Origin: Planctomycetota bacterium | Lineage (GTDB): Bacteria; Planctomycetota; UBA1135; UBA2386 | DNA: 64,000 nucleotides | Assembly (NCBI GenBank): GCA_019636245.1 | Contig: JAHBXX010000026.1 | Location: 1 to 64,000, forward strand | Direction of reading: 5' to 3' | Shown: positions 39,944-53,120 of the stretch, one piece after another | Numbering within the stretch: the stretch's first letter is position 1 | How the letters are laid out: every line of letters begins with the position of its first letter | Made by a program: the position numbers and the translations under genes | The notes under the pieces: generated by a model | What the model was told of the DNA's origin: nothing | The model's database searches: none | The model's input: the letters and a program-made list of their open reading frames with translations, nothing else

Positions 39944-40322
39944 GTGGCCCCTTTGGCAGGTCTTCCCCGCCGCTGGCAGCGTACCGATCGGGGGGGGGTG
40001 TGGCGTCAAGGGTTGCACACTCCCTTCGGCCGCGGCCCGTCGGCGGTGGGCTCGACGACGTCGCGGTAGAACCGCAGCACGTCGGCATCGTCGGCGTGGT
40101 CGAGGCCGAACCATGCCATCGCTGCGCCCTCTGCAGTGGTCGCGAGCCCCAGGGCTCAGGGGGCGAATGGTTGCTCTCGGCAGGCTGCCGGACCGACCAG
40201 AGTCTACGAGGTAGGCCCTGGCTGGCCCTTGCCTGGTACAGGGGCGCAACTGGCGGTCAGTACCAAGATTGAGCCCTCGGATCCTGGCGCCTGCTCCGCT
40301 TGCTGGTTTGCCCCGTGTAGGC
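39944..40322. other. Intergenic between the divergent Cys-rich operons
   Basis: No convincing gene. A minus-strand frame ending at 40006 encodes about 37 residues (MAWFGLDHADDADVLRFYRD...) and may be the tail of a lost gene. From about 40250 rightwards the base composition becomes markedly less G+C-rich. Confidence 0.45.
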
Positions 40323-40351
40323 TTGACGCGCTATCTACACATCGCTACCGT
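40323..40351 (+). promoter_or_regulatory. Possible sigma-70-like promoter of the Cys-rich operon
   Basis: TTGACG (40323-40328) and TACCGT (40346-40351) are 17 bases apart. The -35 matches well and the -10 only at three positions. Transcription would start near 40358, about 50 bases before the ATG at 40411. Prediction by eye only. Confidence 0.3.
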
Positions 40352-40360
40352 CCGCTCGGT

Positions 40361-40389
40361 TCCCGGGCGACTCCCGGGCGACTCCCGGG
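40361..40389 (+). repeat. Short tandem repeat in the operon leader
   Basis: The 11-base unit TCCCGGGCGAC occurs twice and then partially again (TCCCGGG). Each unit contains the palindrome CCCGGG. It lies between the possible promoter and the first start codon, where an operator or mRNA structure would act. Confidence 0.5.
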
Positions 40390-40410
40390 GACATCAATAG
40401 AGAGGGACTC

Positions 40411-40809
40411 ATGCTACAGCGATGCCTCCTCGGGTCTGTGGGCCTTGCACTCTGTCTTCCGCTCTTGTCCTCGATCTCTGAGGTATCGGCTAGGCCGGTG
40501 CTCGATGAGCCCGAGCACTGCGTCGAGGCTCATGCCGACCCGAACTCCGTGCCTCGCAACGCAGATTGCGGGGGAGGTTGTCGGACCGACCCTGGGTGCA
40601 GCGGGCTTGTTTGGATCCAGGCCAGCATAGGTGGCGATTGTGTTCCGGGGGGCAACGGATGCTCGCTGTTCGGAGGCCAGAAGGAAGTCGTTCTGCAGGT
40701 CTACAAGTGCGACGCGGTCACGATTGACTGTCCTGCAGGCATGTCGCGGTGTAGTTGGGGCTCCCAGGGGACCGTGTCCAGTTGGATTGGGAACTGCAAG
40801 AACACATGA
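40411..40809 (+). CDS. Small secreted cysteine-rich protein
   Basis: The protein has 132 residues. A signal peptide (about 1-28, 'LGSVGLALCLPLLSSI...SARP') precedes a mature part with 10 Cys ('CGGGCRTDPGC', 'CVPGGNGC', 'CDAVTIDCPAGMSRC', final Cys three residues from the end). The even number suggests five disulfides. AGAGGG about 5 bases before the ATG is a ribosome site. It is first of four codirectional genes. The base composition is much less G+C-rich than the genome around it. Function unknown; a secreted peptide or structural protein is possible. Confidence 0.72.
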   Translation: MLQRCLLGSVGLALCLPLLSSISEVSARPVLDEPEHCVEAHADPNSVPRNADCGGGCRTDPGCSGLVWIQASIGGDCVPGGNGCSLFGGQKEVVLQVYKCDAVTIDCPAGMSRCSWGSQGTVSSWIGNCKNT

Positions 40810-40846
40810 ATGAAGTCTGGGTAGATCCATGTCTGTGACGCGGACC

Positions 40847-40852
40847 GGAAGG
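40847..40852 (+). promoter_or_regulatory. Shine-Dalgarno deciding the ATG start at 40861
   Basis: GGAAGG lies 8 bases before ATG 40861. It overlaps the alternative GTG start at 40852, which is therefore unlikely. Confidence 0.6.
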
Positions 40853-40860
40853 TGTTAGCC

Positions 40861-41826
40861 ATGATGATGGGTGCGATTGTAGCCCTGTTGCCGATTCAGG
40901 ATCCCAGTGCTGTGGCAGCCATGCTGCGACGATTCGAGGTTGCCTGTTGCGCTCTTCTGCAGCCCATGAGGTTCAGTGTTGTGAAATCCGTTCTATGTGA
41001 GCATAGGGGCGCTGGGGCGGGCGCGCTGGTCCGCGGACTCTTCTCTGATGCGGGGCCGATCTCCTGGACCGACCGGGATGAGGTGGTTCGGCTGTTGCTT
41101 GATCCTGCCCGAGAGCCGCTCACGGTATGTGCCCCAATCGTTATGAGTGCTCCACCCTGGCATTATGAAGAGATCCTAGATGAAAGCGGATGCACTACTC
41201 GCGTCACCCTGATGAGTGACGGCGAGGTCGACGTCACTAAGGTACAGCATCCGAAGGGTTCTCAGTGCTCTGTGGTCTGGACTCAGCCGACCGAGCGGTT
41301 CTCCGTGGGTAGCCTCGTGTCTCCTATCCCATCTAGTCGTCGTTTCGTGGCGGACTGGTTGGCGACTTGGAAATGGAGTGTGATCGCTGGTTCGCCATCC
41401 GACGAGGCGACGATCCGGGTCACCAAGGAGGGGAGCCCGAACTCGTATCTGGTCCGAGTTCGCGAGGATGGACTTCCTCGTGTAGTAGCAATGACGTCGG
41501 AGGACGCCTCCTCAGGGTTCTTGGCCTACTTTGAATACTCCGAGGATTCCGGTAGTCCGGTCTGGGTCTCGTTGATTCACAGGGTTGCATGGAGACCTGG
41601 TGGGATGACGATGGTCTCGATTTCGATCAGCGGTCACGCTTTGATAGATAGCGCGGTCATCAGAGAGAAGAAGATTTGGGTGCATGTTGGTGATATGATT
41701 TGCGACGGGCGGACTCGTCCTTACACCGTCTTGTCCGTGACGCCTGACACCGGAGATCCTCGCATCCCTCACGTCGAGATCCGGGAGGTTCTGGACGGCA
41801 TCACGCCGACCGAGGTGAGGAAGTGA
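40861..41826 (+). CDS. Unknown protein of the Cys-rich operon
   Basis: The 321-residue protein is beta-rich in the second half, with strands such as 'YLVRVREDGLPRVVAM', 'FLAYFEYSEDSGSPVWVSLIHRVAW' and 'KIWVHVGDMICDG'. This overall plan vaguely recalls LolA/outer-membrane-lipoprotein-sorting-like proteins, but no motif confirms it. The N-terminus MMMGAIVALLP is weakly hydrophobic; export is uncertain. Its TGA overlaps the GTG of the DUF1573-like gene (GTGA), so the two are coupled. Codon use is A/T-richer than in surrounding genes, which supports recent transfer. Confidence 0.65.
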   Translation: MMMGAIVALLPIQDPSAVAAMLRRFEVACCALLQPMRFSVVKSVLCEHRGAGAGALVRGLFSDAGPISWTDRDEVVRLLLDPAREPLTVCAPIVMSAPPWHYEEILDESGCTTRVTLMSDGEVDVTKVQHPKGSQCSVVWTQPTERFSVGSLVSPIPSSRRFVADWLATWKWSVIAGSPSDEATIRVTKEGSPNSYLVRVREDGLPRVVAMTSEDASSGFLAYFEYSEDSGSPVWVSLIHRVAWRPGGMTMVSISISGHALIDSAVIREKKIWVHVGDMICDGRTRPYTVLSVTPDTGDPRIPHVEIREVLDGITPTEVRK

Positions 41827-42809
41827 GTGACTGGCCTGTCGCTGGCGTGCTCATGCTGCTGGGCGTGCTTCTTGGGTCTTGTTCTGAGGTTACGGCGCCG
41901 ATCGTCCTCGAGCATGATCTCGGGACAGCGCCGGTCGGATCGACGATTGTCCAGGATGTCGAGGTGTTGAACCACACGATGCACGCTTGGAGTCTTGGTG
42001 ATATTCGCACGACTTGCGATTGTGTCTCCGGCGAGTTGCTGGTCTCCGTAGTCGCGCCGGGGGACCGAGCGATACTGCGCGTCAAGGTCCGCATGTCGCA
42101 GGAGGGGATGCACAAGCATGATTTGTATGCGGCAATGGTGTATCGCCATTCTGGCCGAGTTGCGGCTCAGGATATCGTTGTAAGGCTCTATGCGCAGGCG
42201 TACGGGCCACCCTGGACGGCACCGAGCTCGCGTCTGATATCGACACCGAGCCAACCGGATAGGTTTCAGATCGACTTCTCCATACCCGTCAGCCCATCGG
42301 GAAAGCCGTGCCTTGCGGCTGTGGCCATCCAGCAAGGCAATATTTTCGGGATTGGCGGGATGCTCCCGGGTCTGGATGTGTCGTTGCAGGAGCCGGTGGT
42401 TCGCTCGGGTCGAGTGATATGGAAGGCTCACGTCAGTGTCCCTGCAATGCCAGGGTCGTTCGAGGGTCTGACGCATATCCGCGCCAGCATTCCCGACCTA
42501 GGCATTGACTTTCCAGAGGTGCAAGTCCGTTGGGTGCCGGCACCTTCGGAAGACGTGTGGTTGATCATGAAGGAACATAGCTCGATCGAAATGGAGCACG
42601 AAGGCGGGTGTGCGGAGGATGCGATCGCAGAAGGCGAGAGGGCATGCGCAGCTGACGATTTGCGCGATGGGGTGAGTGATCATGAGGTCGTCGTGCAGCC
42701 CGTCACGAACGGTGTGCGATTGACGACTGGAGAAGGACTGGGCGTGGGAACGGTGAGGTTGCATCGTGGTGGCAGCGCCCGCCTCGTCAAGGTCCTGGTC
42801 GTGCCGTGA
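41823..42809 (+). CDS. DUF1573-like lipoprotein
   Basis: The protein has 328 residues. The signal ends in LLGSC, a lipobox. Residues about 25-125 are a DUF1573-like Ig/fibronectin-type domain: 'HDLGTAPVGSTIVQDVEVLNHT' followed by the characteristic 'TTCDCVSG' and 'VAPGDRAILRVKV'. A second beta region follows without a clear name. DUF1573 proteins are periplasmic or surface proteins, frequently near redox-related and secreted-peptide genes in Bacteroidetes and Planctomycetes. Both the start (GTGA with the previous gene) and stop (GTGA with the next) overlap, so translation is coupled throughout. Confidence 0.8.
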   Translation: MSDWPVAGVLMLLGVLLGSCSEVTAPIVLEHDLGTAPVGSTIVQDVEVLNHTMHAWSLGDIRTTCDCVSGELLVSVVAPGDRAILRVKVRMSQEGMHKHDLYAAMVYRHSGRVAAQDIVVRLYAQAYGPPWTAPSSRLISTPSQPDRFQIDFSIPVSPSGKPCLAAVAIQQGNIFGIGGMLPGLDVSLQEPVVRSGRVIWKAHVSVPAMPGSFEGLTHIRASIPDLGIDFPEVQVRWVPAPSEDVWLIMKEHSSIEMEHEGGCAEDAIAEGERACAADDLRDGVSDHEVVVQPVTNGVRLTTGEGLGVGTVRLHRGGSARLVKVLVVP

Positions 42810-45202
42810 AGATGACTCAGAGGCGACTGCTGGTCGGGTCGATTGCTGGGTTGATCGCGAGCTCAGCAATCATGTGGTGGATCATGGATCCATCGCTGCA
42901 GCCGACGATTGGTGTCGAAGGGGCCGGGCGAATTGCAACGGCGACGTCCATGGTGGGGCTCGAGGACGGTGCGCGATCCTCGGTTGCTGAAGACTCTCAG
43001 GTCGAGAGCCATGTGCTTCCCGATGCGCGCGAGGAGATTCATCAGGCGCGGTTTGTGACCGTGATGGTGCTCGACCATCGGGGGCAGGCGCAGATGGGCT
43101 GCGACATCCTGCTGTGCAGGAGTGGCCAGCCGGCCTGGTGGCTGCGGGAACGCAGTGATTCGATCGTCTACCAGGCCGACCCCGGCGGACCGATCTACAC
43201 GCTCCCGGGCGAAGTCATCCCGTCGCCGCAGCCCATCGCTGCTGCCGTCGCCGCTGGACTCACCGACGAGCGAGGAGTCTGCAGGCTCGAGGTTCCCGAC
43301 CTGTGCGCTTGGGGAACGGTGTGGTGCCGGTTCGGATCGCGTTGGATGGGGCGATCCTGGCAGGCTGGTATCCAGGAGGTGCGATTCGTGGCAGAACAAA
43401 CATGCGAGGTGTCGGGCACCCTGGTCGCACGAGACAGCACTGCTTTGCGGTTGCCCGAGGGCTCGATGCTGGTCGGTCAGGATCCGAGTACCGGAGAGTT
43501 GCACGCGGGGACTGTGGACGAATCGGGAGTCTTCTCGTGCGCGGTCAAGGCCGATGCGCCTGCACTCCTGCGCCTCCTCGATGCCGGCGAATGGAGCGTC
43601 GCTGCGCCGACACCTTTGGTGCGATGTGGTGCTGGGGTCCGACTCGTGGTGGAGAGGAGCGAGCGGGTCGCTCTCGTGGACGTGGCCGGCGCGCCGGTCG
43701 AACTCGCTGAGGTCTTCGTGCTGGAACGGCGCGCGCATGAAGTGATGAGTCGACGAATCGGCGCAAGAGCCGACGGCGTTCACCGGGTGTGGCAGGCTGA
43801 CTCTCGCCGAGAGTTCGCAGATCGTCCAGGACTCGTGCTGATCAGGGCAGAAGGGTGCGTGAGCAGTAGCTTCGAACGCTCGGCCGACCTCCAAGTTCGC
43901 ACTCTCGTTCGAGGTCGTGATCCGCGAGTTCGGGTCGTTGGCGAGGGTGGTGATCTGTTGCGCATCGACATCGGCGGGCACGGGACTTCCGCATCGCCAC
44001 TGAGCTGTCTCTTCGCCGGGCGACTGCCTCCAGGGGGGGGCCTCGAATGCGAGGTGCCGGCGGGCGTGGTGGTGCGCCTGACGATGTCGAGACGCGGCAT
44101 TACGATCTTGGATCGCGAGATGGCTACAGCCGAGGATGTCACCGTGGCGGCTGGCGACCCGACGACCGGACGTCTGGCGGTGCACGCCGAGGGCGACTGG
44201 GCCGTGGAAGTGAATGTGGAGGTCGGTGGGAGGTCGCGGGGCGGTTCCCGGGCCGGCGATGGTGTCTGGCTCTTCGCCGACCTCGCGCCCGGGCCGGTGG
44301 TCGTCTCGGGGATACCCAAGGCAGGACACCACGATTGGCGTGAGGAGTTCGGTATGCGGCGTGGAATCGTCTGCGAAGTGGTGGCGGGAGCAGAGACCAA
44401 CATCGACCTTCTGCAGCCTCTTTCGCGGCGGACGCAGATCGTCGTCGTGGATGCGCAGGGCGGGCAGTTGCCCAACGCCGCGATCAGGGACCGGGCAAAG
44501 TCGACACGAGTCACTGGGCCCTTCGGAGAGATCGAAGGGTGGGACGCCTGGAAGCCGCCGCTCGCGTTGGCAGAAGTGCCCCCCGGACTATGGCTTCCCC
44601 TGCCGATCCGCGGTCAGCCCACGGCTGCAGGTGAGGTCGCGGTCGCGACGGTCGAGACACGCTGGCTCGACGCCCTGGCGCCCATGCTGGTCAGGGTCTT
44701 CACCGGCGACGTCGAGCGGGACTGGAAGAGCATCACCTACACGAGTGCGCGGCGAACCGGCAGGCTGGTGGTGCACGGGCAGCCGGATGCTCCTGGCGTC
44801 GCGTCCTGGCCGATGGATCTTGATGGCGAACTGAACGTCGAGATCGCGCTGCGAGGGGGCGGCCTGGTGCGTTCCGAGTCGGTTGCCGTGGCGGGGAGTC
44901 GACGCTACGACCTCCGGGTGGCGGGGCCAGCGACGGGTGGATGGTGCAGGTTGCGACTGTTCGTCCCGCCGCGCGACGACGGCCTGATCGAGACGGTCAA
45001 CGTCGTGGTCTTCGACGCGAGCGATCGCCTGCTGCAAGCCAGCGACTCCGAGTGCCTTGCCCTGCGAACGGGATGCTGGACCGACGTGCTGACGCGGCCT
45101 GGAAGGAAGCGGATCGTCGCGCGCGCGCGCAGCGACGACGCGACCGCCGTCTGGGCCGGGAACGTCGATCGGGAACTGGCCGCCGTTCAGCTGGTCTGGT
45201 AG
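42806..45202 (+). CDS. Large anchored carboxypeptidase-regulatory-like protein
   Basis: The protein has 798 residues. A signal anchor (about 6-26, 'RRLLVGSIAGLIASSAIMWWIM') is followed by a long beta-sandwich exported region with CarboxypepD_reg-like units, such as 'VTVMVLDHRGQAQMGCDILL' and 'QIVVVDAQGGQLPNAAI'. It is the positional counterpart of the frameshifted 37840-39506 gene in the divergent operon and similar in build, although pairwise similarity is low to the eye. The GTG at 42806 overlaps the upstream stop (GTGA); ATG 42812 is the alternative. Likely a surface scaffold for the operon's small proteins (inference). Confidence 0.72.
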   Translation: MKMTQRRLLVGSIAGLIASSAIMWWIMDPSLQPTIGVEGAGRIATATSMVGLEDGARSSVAEDSQVESHVLPDAREEIHQARFVTVMVLDHRGQAQMGCDILLCRSGQPAWWLRERSDSIVYQADPGGPIYTLPGEVIPSPQPIAAAVAAGLTDERGVCRLEVPDLCAWGTVWCRFGSRWMGRSWQAGIQEVRFVAEQTCEVSGTLVARDSTALRLPEGSMLVGQDPSTGELHAGTVDESGVFSCAVKADAPALLRLLDAGEWSVAAPTPLVRCGAGVRLVVERSERVALVDVAGAPVELAEVFVLERRAHEVMSRRIGARADGVHRVWQADSRREFADRPGLVLIRAEGCVSSSFERSADLQVRTLVRGRDPRVRVVGEGGDLLRIDIGGHGTSASPLSCLFAGRLPPGGGLECEVPAGVVVRLTMSRRGITILDREMATAEDVTVAAGDPTTGRLAVHAEGDWAVEVNVEVGGRSRGGSRAGDGVWLFADLAPGPVVVSGIPKAGHHDWREEFGMRRGIVCEVVAGAETNIDLLQPLSRRTQIVVVDAQGGQLPNAAIRDRAKSTRVTGPFGEIEGWDAWKPPLALAEVPPGLWLPLPIRGQPTAAGEVAVATVETRWLDALAPMLVRVFTGDVERDWKSITYTSARRTGRLVVHGQPDAPGVASWPMDLDGELNVEIALRGGGLVRSESVAVAGSRRYDLRVAGPATGGWCRLRLFVPPRDDGLIETVNVVVFDASDRLLQASDSECLALRTGCWTDVLTRPGRKRIVARARSDDATAVWAGNVDRELAAVQLVW

Positions 45203-46931: not shown

Positions 46932-47849
46932 ATGAGTCCCCAGCATCCACCCCTTTCCGTCCCCGGCTTCACCGCCGAGGAAGTCGTCAGCAAGATCGGC
47001 TTCTGCGAGCAGCTCAAGGGCGGCGTCATCATGGACGTCGTCGATGCCGAGCAGGCGCGCATCGCCGAGGAGGCCGGCGCCTGCGCGGTGATGGCGCTCG
47101 AGCGTGTGCCGGCCGACATCCGCAAGCACGGCGGCGTCGCCCGCGCCAGCGACCCGGGCATGATCGAGGCGATCCAGAAGGCGGTCAGCATCCCGGTGAT
47201 GGCGAAGGTGCGCATCGGCCACTTCGTCGAGGCGCAGATGCTCGAGGCGATGGAGGTCGACTGCATCGACGAGAGCGAGGTCCTGACGCCGGCCGACGAG
47301 CAGTTCCACGTCGACAAGCGCGTGTTCAAGACGCCGTTCGTCTGCGGCTGCCGTGACCTCGGCGAGGCGCTGCGGCGCATCCACGAGGGCGCGGCGCTGA
47401 TCCGCACCAAGGGCGAGGCCGGCACCGGCAACGTCGTCGAGGCGGTGCGCCACATGCGCGCGCTGATGGCGCAGATCCGCGAGCTGCGCGGCCAGGACGA
47501 GCGGTTCCTCGAGCGCAAGGCCAGCGAGCTGCGGGTGCCGTTCGAGCTGGTCGCCTGGGTCGCCGAGCACGGCCGGCTGCCGGTGCCGAACTTCTCGGCC
47601 GGCGGCGTCGCGACGCCCGCCGACGCGGCGCTGATGATGCAGCTCGGCGCCGAGGCGGTGTTCGTCGGCTCCGGCATCTTCAAGTCCGGCAATCCCCGGC
47701 AGCGCGCGCGCGCGATCGTGCGCGCGGTGACGCACTACGAGGAGCCGAAGGTGCTCGTCGAGGTGTCGAAGGGCCTCGGCGAGCCGATGGTCGGCATCGA
47801 CATCAACACGCTGCCCGCGCAGGAGCGACTCGCCGGCCGTGGCATCTGA
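46932..47849 (+). CDS. pdxS: Pyridoxal 5'-phosphate synthase lyase subunit
   Basis: The 305-residue protein makes PLP from ribose 5-phosphate, glyceraldehyde 3-phosphate and ammonia delivered by PdxT. The catalytic lysines are visible: Lys92 in [10 protein letters not shown] and Lys160 in [10 protein letters not shown], 68 residues apart as in known PdxS. '[31 protein letters not shown]' region is the phosphate-binding end of the barrel. Length is normal. It overlaps pdxT by 11 bases. Confidence 0.98.
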
Positions 47850-48459
47850 GGCGGGGAACGGGGCGCCCCTGGTCGGCGTGCTGGCGCTGCAGGGCGACTT
47901 CGCCGAGCACGAGGCGGCGCTGCAGCGCGTGGGTCTGCGCACGCGCCAGGTGCGTTCGCCGGCGCAGCTCGAGGGCCTGCACGGCCTGGTGCTGCCGGGC
48001 GGCGAGAGCACGACGATGCTGCGGCTGCTCGAGGTCGAGGGGCTGTGGGAACCGCTCGGCCGCGCGCTGCGCAGCGGCCTGCCGGTGCTGGCGACCTGCG
48101 CCGGCATGATCCTGCTCGCCGAACGCGTCGAGAACCCGAGCCAGCGCAGCTACGGCCTGCTGCCGATCACCGTGGTGCGCAACGGCTATGGGCGGCAGGT
48201 CCATTCCGGCACCTTCGCGCTCGACTCCGGGGTGCTGCCGGCGGGGACGACCGGCACGTTCATCCGCGCGCCGCGCATCACCGCGGTCGGGGATGGATGC
48301 GAGGTGCTGGCGCGGCGGGGCGGCGACGCCGTGCTGGTGCGGCGCGGGCCCATCCTGGCCGCGTGCTTCCATCCCGAGCTGCAGGCGGAGCCGCATCCGG
48401 TCACGGCGATGTTCGTCGATGCGGTGCGGGCTGGGAGGAGCATGGTCGGCGTGGCTTGA
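47839..48459 (+). CDS. pdxT: Pyridoxal 5'-phosphate synthase glutaminase subunit
   Basis: The 206-residue class I glutaminase releases ammonia for PdxS. The triad is present: Cys87 in ATCAGM, His178 and Glu180 in FHPE; PGGEST is the PdxT-specific loop. GTG 47839 lies inside the end of pdxS, giving an 11-base overlap and likely coupling. Following it, 48460-48744 shows no gene. Confidence 0.96.
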
Positions 48460-48744: not shown

Positions 48745-50982
48745 ATGGCGGAACTGCCGGAACCGCTGGAGTGCGAGGTCTACCGGCTCGTACTGGGATC
48801 CGAGGCTCGATTCGCCGGCGGCGCCCTCTCTGCATTGCTGGCCGACAACCCGGCACACGCCACCGCGATGCAGGCTCTCGTCGGCACTCTCGAGGGCATG
48901 GCCGTGGCGTCGCCTGCCGGTGCCGACTTGTTGCGTCGGCTGCGACGCATCTACGCCGCGCCGCGTCACGCTGCCCGCTACCAGCACATGTCCACCCTCG
49001 ACGTGGGAGGGTTCGGCGAGGTGTCGATCGTGCACGACCGGCTGCTCGGCCGGAAGGTCGCGCGCAAGACGATCCGTCCGCAGTGGGGCCGGCGTCTCGT
49101 CGACCTGCCGCCCGAACTCGTGCATCGGTTCCTCGACGAGGTCCAGGTCGCGGCCCAACTCGCGCACCCGGCGATCCCGCCGGTACACGACGTCGGCGTC
49201 TCGCCGTTCGGCGTGCCGTTCTTCACCATGCGCCTCGTGCGCGGCGTGACGCTTGGTACGGTCATCGAACGCCACCTGGCGGGTGACGCGGCGTGGCCGC
49301 TGACGCGCCTGCTGCGTGTGCTGGTGGATGTTGCCGATGCGGTGCACTACGCCCACGGCCAGGGTGTCCTGCACCGCGACCTGAAGCCGGCGAACGTGCT
49401 GGTCGGCCGTTTCGGTGAGGTCTGCGTACTCGATTGGGGCCTCGCCAAGGCACACCGCGAACTGTCGAGCGCGACACGTCCGGACATCGTCGCCAGCGAT
49501 CGACAGACCCCGCTCGATTCGCTCGGCAAGGGTACGCCCGGCTTCACCGCACCGGAGCAGTGGCGAGGCTCGTTCCATCCGTGCGGCGACGTGTTCTCGT
49601 TGGGTGCGATCCTGCACCTGATCCTGCTCGACACACCACCGCCGATCGACCACGCCACGGAGCGGTACGACCTGCCGACGGCAGCGCGGCGCAAGGACGC
49701 GGCGCTGGCGGCGATCTGTGCCCGGGCGCTGGCGATCCGGCCGGAGCACCGCTACCCGACGATGGCCGCGCTCCGCGACGATCTTCGCGCGCGGCGCGAC
49801 GGTGAGTCGGTGTCGGTGCTGCGTCCAGGACCGCTGCAGTGGCTCGGGCTCCGCGCCCGACGATGGATCGCCGCTCGGCACGATCGGATGGTCGCGCCGG
49901 CCGCGCGCCTACCAGCCACCGTCGCCGCGGGCGATCTGCCGCCACCGACCCTGGCGCTGTGGCCGGATGCCCCGGCCCGCCGCCGCAGCGCGGGGGTGGT
50001 GGGGAGTCCCTCGCGTCTGCACGGGCTGGCGGAGCGCCTGCAGGCCATCCGGGACCTGGGCGCCGAGCCCGGCCGCTTTCCCTCGGTGCGTGAACTCGGC
50101 GCCGGCGGCATGGCAAACGTGCGCGTCGCCACCGACGAACTGCTCGGTCGTGAGGTCGTGGTCAAGGTTGACCGTATCGGTCCCTCGCTGTCGGAGCTGC
50201 AGAGCGGCAGCAGCCGCACGCCCGACCACCTCGCGGGCCTGATGCTCGACGAGGCACAGATCGTCGCCCAGCTCGACCACCCGTCGGTCCTGGTGCCATA
50301 CGACGTGCTGCTCGATGGCGAGGGCCGGCTCGCGATGGTGCTGCCGTTCGTGCAGGCCGGGTCGTTGGCGAGGATGCTCCGCGAACGCGGGTCTGCGGCA
50401 TGGCGCGAGACCATTCCTGCGCTGCTGCAGGCCAGCCGAGGCCTCGCGTTCGCGCATGGCAAGGGTGTCGTGCACGGTGACGTCAAGCCGTTCAACATCC
50501 TGCTCGGCAACCATGGGGATGCCTATCTCGCCGATTGGGGGACTGCCGTCGTCTGCGGCAGCTCGGTCGGTGATGCATCCAGGATCCTCCTGCAGCGCGG
50601 CAGCTCGTTCGGTGGCGACCAGCTGGTCGGCAGCAACACCGGCGACCGGGAACCCGGAATGGTCATGGGAACACCGACCTACATGGCGCCCGAACGGTGG
50701 GCCGACGAGCCGATGGACCCTCGCAGCGACGTCTATTCGCTCGGCGCCGTGCTGTTCGAACTGCTCGTCGGGGCGCCTTGGATCGACGAGCAGAACGTCA
50801 TGGCCATCTGTCGACAGGTCACGAGCCAGGACGCGCCGCCGGTGCGTTCCCGCAATCCGCACGCGCCGAAAGCCCTGGCCGCGGTCTGCGAGCGTGCCTT
50901 GCAGAGAGTGCCACATGCGCGCCATCGGGATGCCGGCGAGTTCGCCCTGGCGCTCGAGTCGGCGCTGCAGCGTTCGCGCTGA
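48745..50982 (+). CDS. Tandem double Ser/Thr protein kinase
   Basis: The protein has 745 residues and no membrane helix, so it should be cytoplasmic. Kinase domain 1 (about 80-370) has GGFGEV, HRDLKPAN (Asp212), DWGLA (230) and FTAPEQW. Domain 2 (about 445-740) has GAGGMANV, VVVKV, HGDVKPFN (Asp579, Arg replaced by Gly), DWGTA (597) and MAPERW. Both have DWG in place of DFG. Domain 2, with HGD rather than HRD, is probably not activated by activation-loop phosphorylation, as in non-RD kinases. A region of about 75 residues links them. It stands alone between pdxT and an MscS gene; targets unknown. Confidence 0.88.
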   Translation: MAELPEPLECEVYRLVLGSEARFAGGALSALLADNPAHATAMQALVGTLEGMAVASPAGADLLRRLRRIYAAPRHAARYQHMSTLDVGGFGEVSIVHDRLLGRKVARKTIRPQWGRRLVDLPPELVHRFLDEVQVAAQLAHPAIPPVHDVGVSPFGVPFFTMRLVRGVTLGTVIERHLAGDAAWPLTRLLRVLVDVADAVHYAHGQGVLHRDLKPANVLVGRFGEVCVLDWGLAKAHRELSSATRPDIVASDRQTPLDSLGKGTPGFTAPEQWRGSFHPCGDVFSLGAILHLILLDTPPPIDHATERYDLPTAARRKDAALAAICARALAIRPEHRYPTMAALRDDLRARRDGESVSVLRPGPLQWLGLRARRWIAARHDRMVAPAARLPATVAAGDLPPPTLALWPDAPARRRSAGVVGSPSRLHGLAERLQAIRDLGAEPGRFPSVRELGAGGMANVRVATDELLGREVVVKVDRIGPSLSELQSGSSRTPDHLAGLMLDEAQIVAQLDHPSVLVPYDVLLDGEGRLAMVLPFVQAGSLARMLRERGSAAWRETIPALLQASRGLAFAHGKGVVHGDVKPFNILLGNHGDAYLADWGTAVVCGSSVGDASRILLQRGSSFGGDQLVGSNTGDREPGMVMGTPTYMAPERWADEPMDPRSDVYSLGAVLFELLVGAPWIDEQNVMAICRQVTSQDAPPVRSRNPHAPKALAAVCERALQRVPHARHRDAGEFALALESALQRSR

Positions 50983-51060
50983 GCGTGGCGGCTCGGCCGC
51001 GGGCCGTTCGGGCGGGGCCGCAGCTTGTTCGACGAAGGCTGCTCCGCCAGCATCGCCGCC

Positions 51061-51930
51061 ATGCCCGCCTCCACCTTCCTCCCGCACCCGCAGGAACCCG
51101 CCACCACTCCCACCCAGGTCCAGATCGACCAATGGCTGACCGAGTCCGTGCTCGACTGGGTCGGCCGCGTGCTCGCCGTGCTGCTGGTACTGGTCGTCGC
51201 CTGGATCGTCGCCGGTTGGGCGCGCCGCGCGGTCGGGCGCCTGCTCGAACGGCCCTACCTCGACCGCACGCTGAGCCGCTTCCTCGGCAACCTGGTGCGC
51301 TGGCTGGTGCTGGTCACGGCGCTCGTCGGCTGCCTCGGCGTGTTCGGCTTCAACATCACCAGCGTCGCCACCGTGCTCGGCGCCGCCGGCCTCGCGATCG
51401 GCCTCGCGCTGCAGGGCTCGCTGACCAACCTCGCCGCCGGCGTGATGCTGCTGCTGCTGCGCCCCTTCAAGATCGGCGACGTCGTGGTGGTGGCGGGGCA
51501 GTGGGGCAAGGTCGACGACATCGACCTGTTCCAGACCAAGATCGACACCGGCGACAACCGCCGCCTGATCCTGCCGAACGCGAGCGTCTTCAACGGCGTG
51601 ATCGAGAACATCACCCACCATCCGGTCCGCCGCTGCGACGTCAACGTCGGCACCGCCTACGGCGCCGACCTCGGCCGCGCGCGCGCCGCGCTGCGCGCTG
51701 CTGCCGAGGGCCTGCCCCTGCGCAAGACCGATCGACCCGTCGACGTGCTGTTGCAGAACCTCGGCAACCATGCGATCGAGTGGGTGGTGCGCGTCTGGGT
51801 GCCGACGACGGAGTTCATCCCGGCCAAGGACCAGTTGCTGGAGGCGATCAAGCGCGAACTCGACCGCGCCGGCGTCGGCATCCCGTTCCCGCAGATCGAT
51901 GTCTGGATGCGGTCGGCCGGCGGGGCCTGA
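51061..51930 (+). CDS. MscS-family mechanosensitive channel
   Basis: The protein has 289 residues. Three N-terminal helices include the pore helix with Gly/Ala-rich 'ATVLGAAGLAIGLALQGSLTNLAAGVMLLLLRPFKIGD', the hallmark of MscS. The cytoplasmic beta domain ('GKVDDIDLFQTKI', 'LPNASVFNGVIENIT') and alpha/beta end follow. Length matches small-conductance channels. It protects against osmotic downshock. ATG 51061 is preferred over upstream in-frame TTG codons. Confidence 0.93.
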   Translation: MPASTFLPHPQEPATTPTQVQIDQWLTESVLDWVGRVLAVLLVLVVAWIVAGWARRAVGRLLERPYLDRTLSRFLGNLVRWLVLVTALVGCLGVFGFNITSVATVLGAAGLAIGLALQGSLTNLAAGVMLLLLRPFKIGDVVVVAGQWGKVDDIDLFQTKIDTGDNRRLILPNASVFNGVIENITHHPVRRCDVNVGTAYGADLGRARAALRAAAEGLPLRKTDRPVDVLLQNLGNHAIEWVVRVWVPTTEFIPAKDQLLEAIKRELDRAGVGIPFPQIDVWMRSAGGA

Positions 51931-51955: not shown

Positions 51956-52118
51956 GCGGCCACCGAGAACCGGCGGTTCGCGGCCGGTTCCGGCTAGAGG
52001 GTCGCGCCCGTCCGCCTAGGATGTCGGCCCCTCGCCGGCCGGTCCGGGCTGGCCGGGGGATTCCCGGGCCGCTGCCCCCAGCCCGGTGCGTAGACGCCTG
52101 CCACAGACCCCACCCCCG

Positions 52119-53120
52119 ATGCCCAGTCCCCTCCGCATCGTCTCGTTCGGCCTCGGCCCGATCGGCCTGGCCGCTGCCCGTCTGGTCCTGCAGAAGAGTT
52201 CCTTGCAGCTCGTCGGCGCCATCGACGCCGACCCGGGCAAGGCCGGGCGCGACCTGGCGGAACTGCTGGACCGCGAGGCCCCGACCGGGCTCGTCGTCGA
52301 GGCCGATGGCACCGGGGCCCTGCCACGCCTGCGCCCCGACGTGGTGCTGCACTGCACGTCGAGCTTCCTGCCTGCCGTGCGCGAGCAGCTGCTGGCGGCG
52401 ATCCAGGCCGGCGCCGACATCGTCTCGTCCGCCGAGGAACTGCTGGCCCCCGAGCTGCAGCACCCGCTGCTGGCGGCCGAACTCGACGAAGCGGCCCGCA
52501 AGGCGGGCGTCTCGCTGCTCGGCACCGGCGTCAACCCGGGCTTCGCCATGGACTTCGTCGCCGTCGTCGCCTCGGCCGTCACCGCCGACGTGCGGGCGGT
52601 CAAGTGCACGCGTGTGGTCGACGCGGCGACGCGCCGCCTGCCGCTGCAGAAGAAGGTCGGCGCCGGCCTCACCAAGGCCGAGTTCCAGCAGCAGCTCGCC
52701 GGCGGCGCCTTCGGCCACATCGGCATGCGCGAATCGGTGGCGCTGGTCGCCCGCGGCCTGGGGCTGCCGGTCGACCGCATCGAGCAGACCGTCGAGCCGG
52801 TGCTGGCGGCGGAGGACCACAAGACGCCGTTCCTGTTCGTCAAAGAAGGCCAGGTCGCCGGGCTGCGCAACCACGGGCTCGGCTTCGTCGGCAAGCAGCT
52901 GGTGGTCCACCTCGACCTGTCGATGTACGTCGGCGCGCCCGATCCGCGCGACGAGATCCAGCTCGACGCTTCGCCGCCGCTGCACCTGAAGTTCCTGGGT
53001 GGGATCCCGGGCGACGAGGCGACGGCGGCGATCCTGGTCAACAGCGTGCACGGCCTCGCCGCGGCGCCCCCTGGCCTGCGGTCGGTGCTCGACGTGATCC
53101 CGCCGCGCCTGTGCCGGTGA
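52119..53120 (+). CDS. NAD(P)-dependent dehydrogenase similar to 2,4-diaminopentanoate dehydrogenase
   Basis: The protein has 333 residues. The Rossmann loop is FGLGPIG (10-16). 'LHCTSSFLPAVREQLLAAIQAGADIVSSAEELL' and 'LLGTGVNPGFAMD' resemble the dihydrodipicolinate-reductase-like family that contains 2,4-diaminopentanoate dehydrogenase of ornithine degradation. No other ornithine-fermentation genes are near, so the substrate is not certain. The frame is open upstream to GTG 52086, but ATG 52119 starts directly before the Rossmann strand. Confidence 0.78.
   Translation: MPSPLRIVSFGLGPIGLAAARLVLQKSSLQLVGAIDADPGKAGRDLAELLDREAPTGLVVEADGTGALPRLRPDVVLHCTSSFLPAVREQLLAAIQAGADIVSSAEELLAPELQHPLLAAELDEAARKAGVSLLGTGVNPGFAMDFVAVVASAVTADVRAVKCTRVVDAATRRLPLQKKVGAGLTKAEFQQQLAGGAFGHIGMRESVALVARGLGLPVDRIEQTVEPVLAAEDHKTPFLFVKEGQVAGLRNHGLGFVGKQLVVHLDLSMYVGAPDPRDEIQLDASPPLHLKFLGGIPGDEATAAILVNSVHGLAAAPPGLRSVLDVIPPRLCR

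Follow-up and report, generated by a model that had tools for sequence, protein, structure and literature searches.

The closest solved structures to the protein described here, by sequence (E 2.8e-35) and by fold (1o6y), are the kinase domains of M. tuberculosis PknB and PknA. PknB is a single-kinase membrane protein carrying PASTA repeats, and passages of the literature describe its asymmetric kinase pairs and ligand-induced dimerisation (PMC6213207, PMC3601408, PMC6333020). In the Planctomycetota, a kinase joined to a membrane segment and to outer TPR or WD40 repeats is a common arrangement; tandem kinase domains are not mentioned in the passages of that survey on which we draw (PMC11032199). 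Two kinase domains on one chain are described for the JAK kinases and the tandem kinase proteins of plants, both eukaryotic, where one of the domains is usually a pseudokinase, to go by the excerpts of that literature consulted here. A literature search, which had most subscription papers outside its reach, turned up no report of a tandem kinase in bacteria.

We analysed a 64,000-nucleotide stretch of Planctomycetota DNA (the window), contig C19 in an assembly of 89 contigs totalling 4.64 Mb. The genome gave three matches to PSCyt1 (PF07635), a family with no match in 14 control genomes, and these, like the kinase signature, suggest a member of the Planctomycetota. The window encodes a 745-residue protein with two kinase domains that has neither the membrane anchorage nor the PASTA repeats of PknB. 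The likeness to JAK and plant tandem kinases is one of architecture; neither domain of the window protein is missing a catalytic residue. Scores against named NCBIfam families with kinase domains also fell below the cut-offs for the PASTA kinases (NF033483; 297.6 against 450), MADS6 (163.1 against 460) and the BREX defence kinase PglW (94.7 against 990). The nearest likeness is to the receptor-type Ser/Thr kinases of the DWG class, with which the protein shares the HRDLKPxNVMVGRFGE...DWG signature, a juxtamembrane stretch and its position in the tree. These kinases have a membrane helix and a C-terminal outer region; the tandem protein is without both and has a second kinase domain instead. 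Its domain 1 is also missing the alphaG helix of the DWG-class single kinases, and its domain 2 carries HGD where the class has HRD.

Architecture of the two-domain kinase

The Pfam kinase model PF00069 matched the protein twice (E 6.8e-55 for the protein as a whole), with 79.4 and 111 bits for the two domains against a curated cut-off of 31.7, which places both in the family (Table 1). The earlier note, made from the sequence alone, had described two kinase domains in one soluble protein, and the reading frame, the two matches and the hydropathy profile bear this out: the highest 19-residue mean (1.53) lies within the fold of domain 1, and thus no membrane helix is seen. The HRD of domain 1 is encoded at 49372-49380 and, together with the HGD of domain 2, identifies Asp212 and Asp579, which the note had proposed to vary, as the correct residues. 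The lysine, glutamate, HxD, asparagine, DxG and APE elements were found in both domains.

Table 1. Features of the two-domain kinase gene and of its surroundings in the window.
Feature	Position	Strand	Basis or remark
pdxT, left border of extra stretch	47839..48459	+	SNO family
Two-domain kinase gene (745 aa)	48745..50982	+	ORF with ATG start; two PF00069 stretches
N-terminal helical region, residues 1-78, without Pfam match	48745..48978	+	Four helices in full-length model; alignable with N-terminal region of the G022 protein
Kinase domain 1, about residues 79-346; Lys108, Glu132, HRD 210-212, DWG 230-232, APE	48979..49782	+	
Shortened alphaF-alphaH stretch of domain 1, residues 296-318, without alphaG helix	49630..49698	+	Length against single kinases; model
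Juxtamembrane-like remnant after domain 1, residues 336-378	49750..49878	+	Tails compared side by side; hydropathy
Linker, residues 379-440	49879..50064	+	Low confidence in model
Kinase domain 2, about residues 441-736; Lys474, Glu503, HGD 577-579, DWG 597-599, APE, alphaG present	50065..50952	+	
HGD codons of domain 2, residues 577-579	50473..50481	+	
MscS-type channel gene, downstream of kinase	51025..51930	+	Pfam MS_channel models; alternative start ATG 51061
Dehydrogenase-like gene, right border of extra stretch	52086..53120	+	73-82% identity to gene adjoining or near pdxT in five relatives; alternative start 52119

A relative encoded in genome G022, which belongs to another genus, is 46% identical to the window protein across residues 5-745, so the tandem architecture is kept in two genera. 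At its N-terminus the G022 protein is longer by about 50 residues; immediately 5' of the start of the window's gene is an in-frame TAG (L032). In a tree of 83 domains, the two copies of domain 1 paired with support of 100/100 and the two copies of domain 2 with 100/99. This pairing by position indicates that the fusion is real and older than the split between the two proteins, and that the common ancestor already carried the two domains on one chain and passed them on jointly. Judged from the sequences, an architecture retained in a full-length relative of this divergence, with domains that pair by position, is more than chance. With two members known, however, "conserved" rests on one comparison. 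Identity between the two proteins was 56% in domain 1 and 43% in domain 2, and the faster change of domain 2 could also reflect weaker constraint.

Proposed descent from receptor-type kinases

Both tandem domains were provisionally placed among the DWG class of the order, on a branch with support of 80/92. A first tree left domains 1 and 2 in a polytomy, compatible with internal duplication as well as with fusion of two class members; holding all four tandem domains as one clade was not rejected (p-AU 0.571) and raised the likelihood by 7 units, a result towards which long branches may pull. The DWG motif, to which the earlier note had drawn attention, is indeed present in both domains, yet it cannot count as a special feature because all 67 other aligned class rows carry it, as they do HRD. 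(The rows L034 and L078 represent a single gene; the 67 rows thus stand for 66 genes, and the 62 considered below for 61.)

At a hydropathy threshold of 1.6, a membrane helix follows the kinase by about 40 residues in 61 of the 62 single-kinase rows, the exception scoring 1.54. Neither tandem protein has such a helix: their maxima, 1.53 and 1.33, lie within domain 1. A likeness to the juxtamembrane part of the single kinases persists in the tail of domain 1 (compare ...LRDDLRARRDGESVSVLRPGPLQWLGLRARRWIAAR with ...LGDDLRRYLEGRVVGAHKTGPLAELRKWVRRN); where the single relatives have the helix, the tandem proteins go on into the linker to domain 2.

Catalytic residues and asymmetry of the two domains

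The alignment contains the catalytic residues K/E/D/K/N/D/E in all four tandem domains, including Lys474, Glu503, Asp579, Asn584 and Asp597 of domain 2 in both members. The earlier note would have abandoned its reading had domain 2 proved unable to bind ATP and unconserved; at the level of sequence, the residues kept in both members speak otherwise. In the structure model, domain 2 has a complete kinase fold with a core pLDDT mostly above 90, and its best match in the PDB is PknB (1o6y; TM 0.88 by target length). Foldseek searches with the full-length model gave matches to single kinases. That model was unusable as evidence of an interface, because the relative position of the domains is not fixed (pTM 0.57).

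The two domains differ from the class in different places. The stretch from alphaF to alphaH in domain 1 measures 25 residues in the window protein and 17 in the G022 protein, against 35-42 in 33 single kinases and a minimum of 34 among the 67 class rows. In the full-length model, alphaF of domain 1 (residues 279-295) is followed by no helix before the alphaH block other than 312-317, beside alphaH; an alphaG helix was modelled at 685-694 in domain 2 and none in domain 1. The alphaG helix of kinases is a docking surface. Domain 2 of both members has alanine as the third glycine of the P-loop, a position held by glycine in 66 of 67 single rows and by serine in one, and its hinge reads M(V/L)LP against FxTM in the class, with methionine there in 67/67. 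The loss of alphaG from domain 1 and the altered P-loop and hinge of domain 2, found in both members, are indirect evidence for a putative division of labour.

The substitution stressed in the earlier note, HGD in place of HRD in domain 2, is present, and "non-RD" is the correct term for this domain of the window protein. The G022 protein has HRD there, as do all 67 class rows, so HGD was rejected as a family trait or key feature and is a private substitution of the window's lineage. Being private to one genome, it offers no basis for a family-wide mechanism. Non-RD kinases can be active. In the window's own genome, 8 of the 51 domains with a readable motif were non-RD (two HGD, two HFD, two HLD, one HND and one HCD), three further entries being unreadable. 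Among its other kinase-like domains, a weakly scoring one (L115; G000:C39:32305-34742) also has HGD (HGDLKPEN), and a kinase at a contig end (L106; G000:C17:74848-77089) reads HCDLAPRN instead of HRDLKPxN. The stress on HGD was misplaced; more telling are the losses of the membrane sensor and of alphaG.

Distribution and genomic neighbourhood

Tandem kinases without a membrane helix, described in the note as uncommon in bacteria, proved rare within the genomes searched. The window's own genome (G000) has 56 PF00069 matches, corresponding to about 53 kinase proteins, and the window protein is the one tandem kinase in that list. Two further same-frame pairs of matches in this genome and one in G002 were rejected as tandems, each being a single domain split in two. 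The PF00069 matches listed for G001, G002 and G022 contained no tandem kinase besides G022's own. Full-length matches to the window protein came from 2 of the 154 genomes of the order, its own and G022; a two-sequence profile search over the class, which also took in 154 genomes, recovered the same two members. A phylum sample of 392 genomes gave matches at E 1e-52 or better in five of them, full length only in the window's own, and a scan of named genomes yielded two loci from other phyla with one kinase match each. The two-domain kinase was not found in G001 or G002, the two other genomes of the genus searched (94% and 93% complete). A few best candidates were scored per genome; the relatives' loci are best matches rather than a random sample, and one weak kinase match (C34:129467) was left out.

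The kinase gene lies downstream of pdxS-pdxT and upstream of the MscS gene, and the kinase and MscS genes together form an extra stretch of about 3.4 kb that separates pdxT from the dehydrogenase-like gene. Both are absent from this site in relatives: pdxT is followed directly by the dehydrogenase-like gene in G001, G002 and G027, with one short gene between them in G003 and two genes in G031. (An open reading frame at 52021-52989 was rejected as a gene because it is in the wrong frame.) The kinase of G022 occupies another site, with HtrA-like trypsin/PDZ, formiminotransferase and imidazolonepropionase-type genes nearby, and with no context conserved between the two loci we rejected any operon or pathway read from the neighbours. 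At a threshold of E 1e-20, 6 of the 8 genomes searched, a set that includes the window's own, lacked a match to the MscS gene.

Codon composition also sets the gene apart. Its third-codon G+C is 0.835 (0.862 and 0.825 for the two domains), lower than in any of the other 49 kinase domains for which it was measured (0.898-0.990) or in the neighbouring genes (0.92-0.96). The site and the codon G+C suggest that the window's lineage gained the gene, perhaps through transfer; loss in other lineages may be the alternative. Elsewhere in the window, at about 40001-44000, G+C drops to 0.62 against 0.70-0.74 in the rest and the GC skew is strongly positive (0.127); this stretch may be foreign DNA.

A proposed soluble, asymmetric kinase pair and its alternatives

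Several readings compete to explain a protein of this kind. Domain 2 could be a regulatory near-pseudokinase that binds ATP weakly or unproductively and controls domain 1 allosterically, as the JAK pseudokinase domains do. Usually fixed places have changed in it (the P-loop alanine and the hinge in both members, HGD in the window protein) and it evolves faster; yet its catalytic residues are all kept in both members, HGD retains the catalytic aspartate, the G022 relative has HRD and the modelled fold appears complete, and we consider this reading rather unlikely. The intact catalytic sets would suit two independent, active kinases with different substrates, for which the fusion fixes only ratio and place, and the long, low-confidence linker fits such an arrangement. 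The absence of alphaG from domain 1 in both members would, however, be unusual in a stand-alone kinase of a class in which the shortest of 67 rows has 34 residues at this place, and independence strikes us as doubtful too.

The gene might also be decaying or passing through, a recent acquisition without a settled function in which HGD and the other changes are drift. Its patchy presence, with neither genus mate searched having it, its place with the MscS gene in the extra DNA after pdxT, and a third-codon G+C under the lowest value of any other kinase domain measured would all agree with this. Against it, the frame is open over 745 codons, every catalytic residue is kept and a 46%-identical relative shares the architecture; we regard decay as quite improbable.

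The reading that we favour, tentatively and with the chances as a whole somewhat against it, is that the protein descends from a receptor kinase and has become a soluble, asymmetric kinase dimer whose halves are permanently paired. Its ancestor would have been a membrane receptor of the DWG class, with a cytoplasmic kinase, a membrane helix and an outer sensor. Helix and sensor would then have been lost, and a second DWG-class kinase domain placed after the retained juxtamembrane stretch. Ordinary receptor kinases are switched on when a ligand pairs two kinase domains, of which one activates the other; passages of the literature describe ligand-induced dimerisation and the asymmetric pairs of PknB (PMC6213207, PMC3601408, PMC6333020). 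In the tandem protein the two domains are permanently linked, hence our proposal of a built-in asymmetric pair. Both domains would bind ATP; domain 1, without the docking surface of alphaG, would mainly act on domain 2 or be acted on by it, and domain 2, which has alphaG and an activation segment of full length, would be the likelier output kinase. Without the HRD arginine, domain 2 of the window's lineage would depend less on activation-loop phosphorylation. Regulation of one domain by the other in cis, which the earlier note had raised, is plausible on these comparisons, and the direction of control is a guess. A more specific proposal, possible though not probable, is that cis pairing replaces ligand-induced pairing: the sensor would have been swapped for a second kinase, with the alphaG-less domain as dedicated partner and the alphaG-bearing, P-loop-altered and now non-RD domain as output.

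If the proposal of a permanent, asymmetric pair is true, a fused and soluble kinase with unlike halves would be a simple system for studying the direction of activation between the halves of an asymmetric kinase pair. The tandem pair would also be a case for how eukaryote-like tandem kinases arise.
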